Shown here piece after piece: positions 59,331 through 64,000 of a stretch of 64,000 bases of DNA (position 1 is its first letter; each line of letters opens with the position of its first letter). Made by a program: the position numbers and the translations under genes. The DNA comes from an uncultured Gemmatimonadota bacterium (GTDB lineage: Bacteria > Gemmatimonadota > Gemmatimonadetes > Gemmatimonadales > Gemmatimonadaceae), in contig CADEFN010000001.1 in the NCBI GenBank assembly GCA_902826615.1, positions 186,001-250,000 on the forward strand. Reading direction: 5' to 3'. The notes beneath the pieces are model-generated. The model did no database searches. It was not told the origin of the DNA and saw only the letters and a program-made list of their open reading frames with translations.

Positions 59331-59562
59331 GCCTTCCTCGGATGGACCATGATCCGGCGACCACCCCGCTGGCGGTTCCGGCGCAGATGCAATGGGTCGG
59401 TCACCGTGTCCGGCCGACCGACCCGCCATCTGGAATGTAAGGTGGCCGTGAAGGGGTCGCCAACCGAACTGACACGTCGGCGGGCGTATTCCGGAGAGGC
59501 CGGTCAGGCATCACATTCGCGCCAGTGAAGTTTCCCACCGACAGGTGACGACACTGGGCGTC

Positions 59563-60090
59563 ATGGATCGTTATTCCGTCGTCATACCTCAGCGACGTCG
59601 CGGACCCGGACGCCGCGGCCGACTCAGAGTGGCCAGTGCACCCGCCGCCACCACCTGGTGGTGGTTGTCGTTAGGCGCACTGACACTCGCCTCCATCCTG
59701 CTGCCGGCCCTGGTGCGTGCACAGGGATTGCGGTCGTCGGTGGCCGCGGTGTCGATCATTGCGGTGAAACACCCGGAGCCAGGTGAGGCCCGCCCTGGCG
59801 AAACCCTCCGTGCCCGTGATCTGGTGTTGCCGGCCGTTTCGGTGCAGCGAGAGGATGTCGTCACCGTGCGGCTCTCGGCCGACAATCTTGCCCCATTGTA
59901 TGTCCGAGCGCTCAGTGGCCGTCTGGAACGTGTGGGCGTCACGCCGGTGAGTGTGGTCCCTGGCCCGCTGCATTTCCGTACGCTCGCGGGGGGAGCGGTG
60001 TCCACGCCGTCGCGCTGGTTGGTGCAGGTGACCATTGCTCCGCGCAGCGGCCCGGCACGTGAGCGGGTGCTGGAGGTTGTCGCGCGTTAG
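59563..60090 (+). CDS. Exported protein of unknown function, convergent with the barrel gene
   Basis: 175 residues from the ATG at 59563 (a GTG at 59545 would add six). A basic leader (RRRGPGRRGRLRV) and one membrane segment (WWWLSLGALTLASILLPAL) end at a signal-like AQG. The rest is predicted beta (SVAAVSIIAVKHPEPG, RARDLVLPAVSVQREDVVTV, WLVQVTIAPRSG). Its stop codon overlaps the stop of the minus-strand barrel gene. Not recognised; its beta-rich, exported nature recalls the fibre-like proteins of the adjacent cluster. Confidence 0.6.
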   Translation: MDRYSVVIPQRRRGPGRRGRLRVASAPAATTWWWLSLGALTLASILLPALVRAQGLRSSVAAVSIIAVKHPEPGEARPGETLRARDLVLPAVSVQREDVVTVRLSADNLAPLYVRALSGRLERVGVTPVSVVPGPLHFRTLAGGAVSTPSRWLVQVTIAPRSGPARERVLEVVAR

Positions 60091-61706
60091 GTGCCGGAGG
60101 TCTGGTTCACTCGACGCACGACGATGCGCACGGGTGTCACCCTGTCGTCCTTTGACGGCACCAGGGTCGCGGGCGCCTCGACAACCTCGAAGGAACCGGG
60201 CACAAGGAAGTCGTCCAGTACGACCCGAAGCGTCAGCGGTTTGGTGGAAGGACGACGCACAAAGAAGCGGCCCTGTGAGTCGGTGTAGATGACCTCTCCG
60301 CCAATCTCGAGCGCCGCGCCATCCACCGGTGCACCGCTTTCGTCGATCACCCGGCCACTGGCCACGTAGCCCTTGACGTTCCCGCCGTCGCCACCGGAGC
60401 GGCCGGCACTGAGGCCGCGATACATGAAGGTGTTGCCCTGCGCGGAGTAGTGCACGCGGCCATCGGGGGTGACAAAACTCCCGATGGAGAGGCTCACGCC
60501 GCGAATATGAAGCCGGGCGTTGACACCCATGGTCTGCACAAAGGGATCTGCGGCGAGGTAGGGCGAGTGGGCCACCTGGTACTCCACACTCAGCGAACTG
60601 AGGCCGGCGTTGATCGTACCACCGAAGTTCACGGAGGTGCGCCCCTGATCACGGGAGATCACCTGGAGCAGGGAGAGCCGGGGGCTGATCGCTTCGCGGA
60701 GCAGGAGCACGGGGGTGGTGGAGCGGGCTTGTGTGGGCTGCCACACTTTGAGCAGGTAGAGTTCGCTCTGAAGCCAGCTGGAGAGCTCGCGGCGTGCGGT
60801 GAGATACGACGAGATGTTGGGCCGCCGTCCCGCTTCAGAAAAGAGCCACCCGCCCGAGAACGACGCGCCGGCGGCTCGGCCGGTTCCGGTGATCTGGGTG
60901 AGCCCCGCGCGCTGGGGAAGTCCGGCAAAGGCAGAATCCTGCCGGAAGTGCTGACGTCCCACGCCTAACGACCACCCGTCGGCGGGTTTCCAGTTGACGA
61001 GGAGGTTGTCGCGCTCGAGTTCCGTCTGCAGCGGCATGGGCGCGGAGGTGCGCCGGAAGTGCTGCCCGATGCCCACCAGCGATGCCTTCACATCAAAGTG
61101 GGGTCGGTTGGCCTCGAGGGCGAGGGCTCCATAGGGAGAGTTCGCGCCGATACCGAGGGTGCTGCTGGTGGCCACACCCTGCGACGGCTTCCAGGTAGCG
61201 CTTGCCATCACGGTCTGCCGATCGGTGGTGATCGCGTGAGCGCTGAACGAGAGGGTTCGGGAGTAGTCGTGTTTGGCGCGCGCGTAGGCCATGGCGTGCA
61301 TGGCTCGCTGCGACCCGAAGTAGGGAGCTGCGAGTGCGGTGGCACTGGCGCCACCGAAAATCCAGGTCTGCGTGCGGCCACGACGACGCTGAATGGACGC
61401 CCCCTGCGCGAAAATGGTGGCACCGGTCGCAAAGACATCGGTGTCGAAGGTGAGTGGCAGAAGATCGTTCCCCACCCGCAGGGTGTCACGCCCACCGATC
61501 AGACGACGCCCCGACGCCCCGATGCGCAGCCCATCGAGGTATCCGACACCTAACGATGCTTCGTATCCGTTACCCCACAGGTTGACCAGACCGCCGTACC
61601 CGGCAAAAAGCGAGGACCCGCCTCCCTGCACCTGGAACACCTGGGCTGAGACAGCAGGAGCACTCAGCGCCAGCGCCAGAGAGAGCACAATCGGCCGGCA
61701 GCGCAT
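60087..61706 (-). CDS. Outer-membrane beta-barrel candidate with C-terminal CarboxypepD_reg-like domain
   Basis: 539 residues from an ATG at 61706 that overlaps the stop of the upstream secreted-protein gene by one base (TGATG). After a signal peptide (IVLSLALALSAPAVSAQ) come about 420 residues of alternating strands with aromatic ends, as in outer-membrane barrels (FQVQGGGSSLFAGYGG, LRIGASGRRLIGGRDT, SGGWLFSEAGRRPNISSY). The last 95 (GYVASGRVIDESGAPVDGAA, YTDSQGRFFVRRPS) form a CarboxypepD_reg-type beta-sandwich, the domain type seen at usher C-termini. It is much shorter than a classical usher (about 800 residues). Best guess: secretion pore or anchor for the co-encoded subunits. Confidence 0.6.
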   Translation of the reverse strand: MRCRPIVLSLALALSAPAVSAQVFQVQGGGSSLFAGYGGLVNLWGNGYEASLGVGYLDGLRIGASGRRLIGGRDTLRVGNDLLPLTFDTDVFATGATIFAQGASIQRRRGRTQTWIFGGASATALAAPYFGSQRAMHAMAYARAKHDYSRTLSFSAHAITTDRQTVMASATWKPSQGVATSSTLGIGANSPYGALALEANRPHFDVKASLVGIGQHFRRTSAPMPLQTELERDNLLVNWKPADGWSLGVGRQHFRQDSAFAGLPQRAGLTQITGTGRAAGASFSGGWLFSEAGRRPNISSYLTARRELSSWLQSELYLLKVWQPTQARSTTPVLLLREAISPRLSLLQVISRDQGRTSVNFGGTINAGLSSLSVEYQVAHSPYLAADPFVQTMGVNARLHIRGVSLSIGSFVTPDGRVHYSAQGNTFMYRGLSAGRSGGDGGNVKGYVASGRVIDESGAPVDGAALEIGGEVIYTDSQGRFFVRRPSTKPLTLRVVLDDFLVPGSFEVVEAPATLVPSKDDRVTPVRIVVRRVNQTSGT

Positions 61707-62365
61707 CAGTAGGCGACCGCCCGCAGATTGAGCGTGCCGCGATAGACACCCGACGCCAGATTGGGCTGACCACGAAGGTCCAGCTGCAGCTCGAGGTTGT
61801 CGGTGCGGCGCGCCTGACCATTGATGGGGGCGATGATGAACTGACGAAAGAGGTGCAGGGTCCCCCCTGGTGTTCCGTTCCCGGCTACTGGTTGCTGTGT
61901 GAACGCCGTGAAAGACCGTACCCGACCGCTCATCATACGTCCCAGCACTCGGCTCGATGCGATGTTTGCCGTGCCGGTCGACAGGGCGCTGGCCGGTGCC
62001 GTGAAGTAGCCGATCAGGTCGACCAGGGTGACAATGGAAGTGAGCTCCCACTCGGTGGTGATGCTGACCGGCGACGGAAAGACGTTGATGCGATTGTCGA
62101 CGAGGCTCGGCATGCTCTGCACCGCCCCGGAGTTGATGAGCACCGTCAGCGAGTTGGCTGTCACGCCGACCGTGGTGCTGTCGGCGCGCATGTTCCAGGC
62201 GGCCACCGACGACAGCGTCGGCACCGACGTGGCCAGACTCCCGACTTGCGCCGTGGCCGTACGCGCGGTGACGGCGAAGGCACTGACACACCAAACGCCC
62301 AAAAGGAGGCCCCGCCTGGCGGCGAGCCTCCGAAGGCCGGAGAGAATGGGACTCATCCTCCGCAT
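61706..62365 (-). CDS. Secreted beta-sandwich protein, paralogue C of the cluster
   Basis: 219 residues from an ATG at 62365 (a second ATG three codons later is possible). The signal peptide ends near ARTATAQ. The body shares a common pattern with its two neighbours: a strand set near the front (SPVSITTEWEL), LIGYFTAPASALSTG, ASSRVLGRMMSG, then RRTDNLELQLDLRGQPNLAS and the terminal GVYRGTLNLRAVAY. The terminal G-x-Y-x-G-x-x-x-x-R-A strand resembles the end of SCPU/DUF4402-type pilins. Likely a surface or fibre subunit; function unproven. Confidence 0.6.
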   Translation of the reverse strand: MRRMSPILSGLRRLAARRGLLLGVWCVSAFAVTARTATAQVGSLATSVPTLSSVAAWNMRADSTTVGVTANSLTVLINSGAVQSMPSLVDNRINVFPSPVSITTEWELTSIVTLVDLIGYFTAPASALSTGTANIASSRVLGRMMSGRVRSFTAFTQQPVAGNGTPGGTLHLFRQFIIAPINGQARRTDNLELQLDLRGQPNLASGVYRGTLNLRAVAY

Positions 62366-62372
62366 CCCGGCG

Positions 62373-62954
62373 TCATGTCGTGAAGGCCCGGACGGTGACG
62401 GTGCCGCTATACGTCCCCGAGGTCAGGGCCGGCTGTCCCACCAGGTTCAACCGGAGATCGAGGTCGATCGTGCGACTCGCCTGCAGGTTGGCGTTTGTTA
62501 TGGGAACGCGCATGAGCCGCAGCGACGCACCGTTCACGCCAATCCCACGGTTGGCATTCTGGGTGAAGGCCGTCCAGTTCACGGGTTGCCACAACGTCGT
62601 GGGGCTGGTCTGTACACGCCCCTGGACGCGCGACGAGGCGAGGTACGTCGTTCCATTCGCCAGCGCCTGAGCGGCATTTCCGAAGTAGGCCAGCATACGC
62701 ACCTCATTGGTTCCCGGCGCTACCGCCCAGGATGCGATAATCCGCACGGGGGTGGGAAACGGATTGAGGGCATTGTCCGTGATACTCGCCAGCGTCTGCG
62801 TGCCACCCGATGCCACGTTCACGGTGAGTGACGATGAACGGGTTGCGCTCAGCGTCACGGTGCGCACGACCGAGGTGAGCCCGGGCTGCGCCTGCAACGG
62901 AACAGACATCAGTCCGCTGAGCGCGACCATCGCCAGAACGAGACGGCAGAGCAT
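62373..62954 (-). CDS. Secreted beta-sandwich protein, paralogue B of the cluster
   Basis: 193 residues from the ATG at 62954 with GGAG upstream. Signal peptide MLCRLVLAMVALSGLMSVPL. Shared features with paralogue C: TPVRIIASWAV, MLAYFGNAAQALANG, ASSRVQGRVQTS, RTIDLDLRLNLVGQPALTSG and GTYSGTVTVRAFTT. The pattern of a central A-L-x-N/T-G...S-S-R-V-x-G-R and a closing G-T-Y-x-G strand is the hallmark of this small family in the window. The gap to the chaperone-like gene is 17 bases, so it is in the same operon. Confidence 0.62.
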   Translation of the reverse strand: MLCRLVLAMVALSGLMSVPLQAQPGLTSVVRTVTLSATRSSSLTVNVASGGTQTLASITDNALNPFPTPVRIIASWAVAPGTNEVRMLAYFGNAAQALANGTTYLASSRVQGRVQTSPTTLWQPVNWTAFTQNANRGIGVNGASLRLMRVPITNANLQASRTIDLDLRLNLVGQPALTSGTYSGTVTVRAFTT

Positions 62955-62971
62955 CAGTGCATTCTCCGAGG

Positions 62972-63685
62972 CTAACGATCGCTGGCGCTGGCGCGCCGCT
63001 CCTCGAAGGTGAACCCGGCAAACCGCAGCATCACCTTGTCGGGCTCTGCCGCGCCTTCCCACGGCACTTCCACGCGGCGTTTGCTGCGTGGAAAGAGCGG
63101 GAAGCCGCCAAAGGGTGTTCCGAACTTGCCATCAGCACTCAGTTCGGATCCCATGACACGCCCCAGGGACGCGCTGGTGTTCTCGAACTCGAGCACGGCC
63201 TTGCGGGTCGCGGTGTCATACGAGAAGCCGCGCAGGGTGACCGCGTCCTTCTTGAGGGCATCCTTTTGCAGGAGATACACCACGTGGGGCAGCTCAATCC
63301 GGAGATTGAGGCCATTGCTTGCACGTGCCCCACTCATCGAACCGAGCACCATGAACCAGGCCGGAAGCTGCCGAGCTTTAGCTTCGTAGTGAACGGTGTA
63401 GGTGGCCAGCGGGGGGATGCGAAAGCTCATGGTCGAGAGCTTGAGCTCGACGTTGGTGGAGTCGAACGGGAGATCGGTGAGATCGCCGCGTTCGTCCACC
63501 TGGAAGCCGCGAGGCTCCAGCACCACCGTCATGGGGAACAGCGTCTCGTTCACCAGGTCGAACTTCCCCTTGGCCTGGGCCGCGTATTCCACGACCGCGG
63601 GACGGACAGTTTGTGCGTGGGACGATAACGCCGTCGCGGCGAGCGCCGCGACGACGAAAGCAGCCCGAATGGAGCGCATCAGCAT
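62972..63685 (-). CDS. PapD-like periplasmic chaperone candidate
   Basis: 237 residues from the ATG at 63685 (three bases after the upstream stop; a second ATG two codons later is possible). Signal peptide ends SSHAQ. GKFDLVNETLFPMTVVLEPR and LSTMSFRIPPLATYTVHYEA recall the N-terminal sandwich of periplasmic pilus chaperones (the N-x-x-x-x-P-x-x-V strand and the P-x-F-x-L-P-P-x-x strand). The later half contains VLEFENTSASLGRVMG and KRRVEVPWEG. The subunit-binding Arg/Lys pair of PapD cannot be identified with confidence. Placement between subunit-like genes supports the chaperone idea. Confidence 0.5.
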   Translation of the reverse strand: MLMRSIRAAFVVAALAATALSSHAQTVRPAVVEYAAQAKGKFDLVNETLFPMTVVLEPRGFQVDERGDLTDLPFDSTNVELKLSTMSFRIPPLATYTVHYEAKARQLPAWFMVLGSMSGARASNGLNLRIELPHVVYLLQKDALKKDAVTLRGFSYDTATRKAVLEFENTSASLGRVMGSELSADGKFGTPFGGFPLFPRSKRRVEVPWEGAAEPDKVMLRFAGFTFEERRASASDR

Positions 63686-63688
63686 GGG

Positions 63689-64000
63689 TTACTGCGTGAT
63701 CGCGCGAAGGTTCAGCGTGCCGGCATACGTGCCCGGCACCGTGGTGGTGCCCACGAGGTCGATCTGCAGATAGAGGTCATCGGTGCGGCTCGAATTGCGG
63801 TTCACACCGGTGATGCCCTGCGAGAAGATCTGGAGTGATCCACCCGCCACACCGACCGAACTCGCACCACCCGTCACCACACCACCAGTAAAGGGGTTGA
63901 AGGCACCCGCCACACCGACACGTCCCCGCACTCGGCTCGTGGTGATGAAGTTGGTTCCGTTCACCAGCGCCTGCGCGGGCGTGGTGAAGTAGCCAACGAG
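63689..64000 (-). CDS. Secreted beta-sandwich protein, paralogue A (cut by the window edge)
   Basis: The last 103 codons run open from the window edge to a TAA at 63689-63691. LVGYFTTPAQALVNGTNFIT, SRVRGRVGVAG, RTDDLYLQIDLVGTT and PGTYAGTLNLRAITQ align with paralogues B and C over their whole C-terminal halves. The start and signal peptide are beyond the edge. It is the most upstream known member of the operon; more genes may precede it. Confidence 0.65.
   Translation of the reverse strand, partial: LVGYFTTPAQALVNGTNFITTSRVRGRVGVAGAFNPFTGGVVTGGASSVGVAGGSLQIFSQGITGVNRNSSRTDDLYLQIDLVGTTTVPGTYAGTLNLRAITQ

Follow-up and report, generated by a model that had tools for sequence, protein, structure and literature searches.

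The operon at the window edge

The window analysed here, a stretch of 64,000 bp (G000:C1:186001-250000) from a 5.9-Mb Gemmatimonadota genome, carries at its right edge an operon, cut by the window end, for small secreted proteins, a PapD-like chaperone and a predicted outer-membrane barrel. An earlier note had read five consecutive minus-strand genes with gaps of 17 bases or less at this place, and they are present as described, with gaps of 3, 17 and 7 bases and an overlap of one base between the last pair. The contig sequence beyond position 64000 (L005) completed the truncated gene, that of subunit B (190 aa), and added a sixth gene of the operon for subunit A, a fourth paralogue of 190 aa lying 32 bases upstream of subunit B. 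The order of transcription is subunit A, subunit B, chaperone, subunit C, subunit D, barrel; the order previously given (subunit, chaperone, subunit, subunit, barrel) holds within the window, and the full operon opens with the additional subunit A. The intergenic gaps are 32 bases for A/B, 3 for B/chaperone, 17 for chaperone/C and 7 for C/D, and the start codon of the barrel gene shares one base with the stop codon of subunit D. The features in the window are as follows.

63689..64000, minus strand: subunit B, 190 aa, 3' part in the window, complete at L005:5690-6262 (subunit profile, E 2.1e-75)
62972..63685, minus strand: PapD-like two-domain periplasmic chaperone, 237 aa including the signal peptide (AlphaFold2 predicted local distance difference test score, pLDDT, 89; CfaA, CsuC, Caf1M and SafB matches; G1 pattern)
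62373..62954, minus strand: subunit C, 193 aa, ATG at 62954 (paralogue identity, conserved motifs, subunit profile)
61706..62365, minus strand: subunit D, 219 aa, extended at its N-terminus relative to its paralogues (paralogue identity, conserved motifs, subunit profile)
60087..61706, minus strand: usher-like outer-membrane barrel, 539 aa (AlphaFold2 pLDDT 78; Foldseek ranks 1-11 all FimD/PapC)
60417..61643, minus strand: barrel domain (residues 22-430) of 26 predicted strands without an inserted plug (AlphaFold2 model, VIA-align)
60111..60368, minus strand: C-terminal CarboxypepD_reg-like beta-sandwich, residues 447-532, candidate equivalent of C-terminal domain 1 (CTD1) of ushers (PF13620, E 3.9e-5, under the Pfam threshold; similar to the SdrD_B stretch of the local full-length ushers)

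All six proteins begin with a segment that, judged from its sequence, resembles a signal peptide. The subunits, of which the earlier note had counted three, are true paralogues and four in number: A and B are 86% identical and the remaining pairs 42-47%. They are about 190 residues in size, and their mature parts contain no cysteine. The shared motifs, including the closing GTYxGT, were borne out over 21 subunits, with no variation at G177, Y179 or A187 and almost none at T182. The N-terminal segment is also conserved, with residues 34, 36 and 38 hydrophobic in 18/21, 17/21 and 19/21, respectively, and the closing strands are strictly alternating and end in GTYxGTLNLRA. The N-terminal segment and the closing strand resemble a donor strand and a final F strand, respectively, and may serve in strand exchange.

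Predicted folds of the chaperone and the barrel

The AlphaFold2 model of the chaperone, built with 16 sequences, folds as two immunoglobulin (Ig)-like domains (pLDDT 89), and the solved structures that match it best, over its whole length, are those of fimbrial chaperones, as expected from its previous description as PapD-like. Foldseek comparison with the PDB placed chaperone-usher chaperones at ranks 1-8 and in 41 of the first 50 matches, CfaA being at the top (E 4.0e-8), with CsuC (1.1e-7), Caf1M (2.1e-7) and EcpB also within ranks 1-8; solved chaperones cover residues 20-233 of the model. In VIA-align, Caf1M and SafB gave Z scores of 13.6-14.0 over 176-190 residues spanning both domains (Caf1M, 14.0 across 184 residues). 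The predicted G1 strand, GLNLRIELPHVVYLL, has hydrophobic residues at 126, 128, 130 and 132 in 16/16 sequences and polar residues at 127 and 129 in 16/16 (hydrophobic in 0/16). Such alternation is the pattern of a donor strand and implies a complementary groove. The basic cleft residues of PapD are Arg8 and Lys112; H134, which is invariant in the predicted G1 strand, is a mere candidate for a residue of this kind.

The barrel model, built with 15 sequences, contains 26 strands at residues 22-430 followed by a small sandwich (pLDDT 78). Its first eleven Foldseek matches in the PDB were all FimD or PapC chains (E 1.0e-11 to 1.3e-7), followed by LptD. Ushers also occupied ranks 1-8 in VIA-align (Z 17.6-16.1, 319-371 residues aligned), and FimD 139-656 mapped in order onto barrel residues 23-426; OprD-type porins scored Z 16.0 and below over 262-276 residues, with a root mean square deviation (rmsd) of 7.0-7.7. 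Conservation averaged 0.667 in the odd-even loops (presumed extracellular), 0.575 in the even-odd turns and 0.686 in the strands. Two long loops, 86-95 and 214-231, are conserved and include the invariant residues T89, D90, F92, R218 and P225.

The C-terminal CarboxypepD_reg domain named by the earlier note is the sole Pfam match in the operon; the match is weak (PF13620, E 3.9e-5, 24.4 bits against a Pfam cut-off of 32.3 bits) but recurs in every barrel scanned. In a related genome (G008), the barrel (L031:3835-5946) ends in an OmpA domain (E 2.4e-22), which would be expected to bind peptidoglycan and suggests that the pore is anchored to the cell wall. In G155 (L062:7814-10004), a matching OmpA stretch was noticed in another frame, reflecting a frameshift or an assembly error. 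Searches of PDB sequences with single proteins and with profiles returned nothing relevant, and the hits to adenovirus fibre (E 0.17) and an NTF2 design (0.61) were taken as chance.

Distribution, linkage and a full-length counterpart

In a sample of 150 genomes drawn from the phylum, searches with the chaperone and with the barrel retrieved the identical nine genomes, with full-length matches that were always adjacent. A chaperone profile run on 395 Gemmatimonadota genomes found the compact chaperone in 14, belonging to two families and six genera; a fifteenth match, in G027, is a different chaperone that belongs to a full-length DUF4402-type set. With one metagenome-assembled genome labelled Terriglobia (G395), the carriers number 15. 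In G395 the compact set is split over two contigs (L077 and L078), and an extra subunit-like open reading frame (ORF) lies downstream of the barrel. The set could have reached another phylum by transfer, or the genome could be mis-binned; spread beyond the phylum is unproven.

Of the 14 Gemmatimonadota carriers, all but G257, in which the contig ends inside subunit D, have the barrel together with the chaperone. Gene order in relatives, which the earlier note had proposed as a check, is always kept as one to three subunits, chaperone, zero to two subunits and barrel, the barest form being the three genes subunit-chaperone-barrel of G028. In ten carrier genomes, all matches of the subunit profile fell inside the operon, the one exception being a 63-residue fragment in G066, at the end of a separate contig. 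Conservation of the complete set extends across genera, to identities as low as about 35%, so these genes are not a chance set of ORFs. Two further weak matches were discarded, one in G094 of 74 residues with one stop and one in G047 limited to the C-terminal domain.

A second kind of chaperone-usher-like set, of full length, occurs in the same phylum.

L031:8801-11380 and L035:3390-5919 (G008), L067:2526-7061 (G027): full-length DUF4402-type chaperone-usher-like operons

In G008 the full-size set lies directly upstream of the compact operon on the same strand. Its genes specify DUF4402 subunits (E 2.6e-6), a chaperone of 282 aa and an usher-like protein of 860 aa that carries SdrD_B and CarboxypepD_reg domains. 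Relatives of the full-length usher were found in 35/150 genomes, some of the matches being partial; the Pfam usher model finds just two genomes and misses the 860-aa usher-like proteins. The compact operon of G040 and G090 stands between a YggX gene and a hydrolase gene, and so does the full-length DUF4402-type set of G027, so that a single chromosomal slot is used by two kinds of chaperone-usher-like set. YggX is also a neighbour in G000, and a desaturase beside YggX is common to G000 and G029 (all three neighbours were named by eye).

The compact and full-length systems are faintly similar in sequence. The G027 chaperone is the one extra match of the compact-chaperone profile (E 4.7e-5; hhalign 3.2e-5 over 49 columns), and profile comparison of the compact chaperone with DUF4402-type chaperones gave E 7.5e-4, the best of 20 shuffles reaching 0.045; this similarity is suggestive only. 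Between the barrel and full-length usher alignments, an overall E of 3.2e-5 was obtained with the signal in the C-terminal domain, and that domain alone matched the SdrD_B region of the local full-length ushers at E 1.4e-5 (best of 20 shuffles, 0.057).

A full-length match of the full-length usher profile was found in just 1 of the 15 carriers of the compact set, the other matches being single C-terminal domains, and PF00577 matched neither in G000 nor in any of the nine carriers of the 150-genome sample. The compact barrel must therefore work without a full-length usher, and a helper role for a distant one was rejected, since 14/15 carriers have none.

A putative compact chaperone-usher-like pathway

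These results suggest, with a probability of roughly three in four, that the operon encodes a compact or reduced chaperone-usher-like pathway that exports donor-strand-linked surface fibres. The gene set, its linkage and the donor-type G1 pattern are observed directly; the fold of the chaperone, and that of an usher-like pore without an N-terminal domain (NTD), plug or second C-terminal domain (CTD2), are predicted by the models. All six proteins would be exported by Sec. Each subunit would have an incomplete Ig fold, and in the periplasm chaperone G1 would stand in for the last strand that it lacks; the base of the capped subunit would be held by the single C-terminal domain of the barrel, the N-terminal strand of the next subunit would replace G1, and the fibre would leave through the barrel pore. 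Least certain is gating: the unplugged pore would probably be shut at rest by loops 86-95 and 214-231, by the C-terminal domain or by the fibre itself. The presence of 1-4 subunits per operon suggests that some species make homopolymers and others composite fibres. In Csu pili, surface contact formation is reported to drive secretion (PMC9452303); such contacts could lessen the need for an elaborate handover, which is offered as an idea only.

Several results weigh against this reading. Pfam and NCBIfam scans of the six operon proteins and their relatives gave no match to any chaperone, usher or pilin model; none of the PapD, usher, SCPU and DUF4402 profiles that the earlier note had proposed for checking matched chaperone, barrel or subunits. 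Specifically, PapD_N (PF00345) and the other sequence profiles matched no chaperone scanned, PF00577 matched no barrel scanned, and neither SCPU-type Pfam models nor the DUF4402 profile (PF14352) matched the subunits, which align with DUF4402 in the closing GTYxGT strand only (E 2.2e-4). The barrel model has no plug, the longest inter-strand loop being 18 residues; there is no periplasmic NTD, as the first barrel strand follows the signal peptide directly, at residue 22. It has 26 predicted strands (at pLDDT 78) against the 24 of known ushers, and the best Z of OprD-type porins (16.0) is barely under those of ushers (17.6-16.1); with so small a gap, the case rests on rank, coverage, rmsd and gene context combined. 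Finally, without its C-terminal domain the barrel matched the local full-length ushers across just 34 columns with E 0.0075, where the best among 20 column shuffles gave 0.17; we do not claim this as homology.

Known ushers consist of an NTD that recruits subunits, a 24-stranded barrel, a plug that gates it, CTD1 and CTD2 (PMC8410936). The barrel is not assigned to the usher family, because the usher sequence profile, plug, NTD and CTD2 were all looked for and not found; model and Pfam give one C-terminal domain only, at residues 447-532. As to the origin of the pore, which the earlier note had left between a reduced and an independently evolved pathway, reduction fits this anatomy, and the pore may be either a reduced usher or of independent origin, its sequence showing no convincing link to ushers outside the C-terminal domain. 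It is tentatively proposed, at slightly under even odds, that the pore of this chaperone-dependent fibre pathway is self-sufficient and needs neither a recruiting NTD nor a plug, and that it was possibly recruited independently of ushers.

Outright convergence, in which a large barrel of other than usher descent came to be served by a PapD-like chaperone, would be compatible with the same working mechanism and is the least improbable of the alternatives, though we consider it unlikely. In its favour are the 26 predicted strands and the lack of significant sequence similarity to ushers in the barrel part; against it, FimD 139-656 aligns colinearly with the barrel over its full extent, a C-terminal domain comes next just as it does in ushers, and the compact operon has a chromosomal slot in common with, and a tandem arrangement beside, the full-length system. 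Less probable still is export of a surface coat or adhesin with no polymerisation, the chaperone keeping beta-sandwich proteins soluble and a wide plug-less pore passing them singly to coat the cell. The NTD and plug, which order polymerisation in ushers, are indeed missing (PMC8410936), and the operons have several subunits with no obvious two-domain tip adhesin. Yet the alternation at subunit residues 34, 36 and 38 and in the closing strands fits strand exchange, the G1 pattern of the chaperone implies a complementary groove, and the pore is usher-like. Very improbable is an ordinary porin or transporter (OprD-like or TonB-dependent-like) at the end of a PapD-chaperone operon, with export through an usher elsewhere: porins and LptD are among the structural matches and CarboxypepD_reg domains are common on TonB-dependent receptors, but ushers fill Foldseek ranks 1-11, co-occurrence and adjacency of chaperone and barrel are strict, with the subunits conserved alongside, no full-length usher was found in 14/15 carriers and PF00577 matched in 0/9 carriers of the 150-genome sample. 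Neither of the two outcomes named by the earlier note as refuting its reading was thus observed: the chaperone model has its two Ig-like domains, and the barrel matches ushers best and is conserved together with the operon.

The proposed compact pathway resembles classical systems (FimC/FimD, PapD/PapC and Caf1M/Caf1A) in having a two-domain PapD-like chaperone, a large usher-like pore and small secreted beta-rich subunits in a single operon, and differs from them in its 539-aa pore without NTD, plug or CTD2, the absence of PF00345 and PF00577 matches, and mature subunits without cysteines. With archaic (sigma) pili such as Csu it shares a chaperone fold matching CsuC (E 1.1e-7), whereas its subunits have no SCPU-type Pfam match, its chaperone is shorter (about 213 mature residues) and its usher is minimal. 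Similarity to alternate (alpha, class 5/CFA/I) pili comprises CfaA as the top Foldseek match of the chaperone and a faint CooC_C match on one barrel tail (E 0.27), but their usher domain set is different. The DUF4402-type operons of G008 and G027 have in common with it the phylum, the slot (G027), the tandem (G008) and faint chaperone and C-terminal-domain similarity; they differ in their DUF4402 subunits and in an usher of about 860 aa that has an extended N-terminus, a plug-like stretch and both SdrD_B and CarboxypepD_reg domains.

If the reading of a self-sufficient pore is true, NTD and plug are not required for strand-exchange fibre export, and a natural pore without either, conserved in two families and functioning with no detectable full-length usher, would be a minimal machine for probing recruitment, gating and energy supply. 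It would also be a fibre system wholly missed by current profile libraries. Its phylum does not appear in the range published for the archaic systems, which are those with a wide phylum range (PMC4654587). A literature search of partial coverage found no paper on a Gemmatimonadota chaperone-usher system or on a plug-less usher.

Convergent to the operon, at window positions 59545-60090 on the plus strand, lies a gene for a protein of 181 aa whose N-terminus resembles a signal or anchor sequence and which had no match in a Pfam scan; G029 has a relative in the corresponding position (42%), and G090 a weak one. It was also noticed that in one family the compact operon is near a urocanase gene (L029, L032 and L035), and that in L032 and L035 a DUF4097-like gene, named by eye, is also nearby, which may help to trace the locus.

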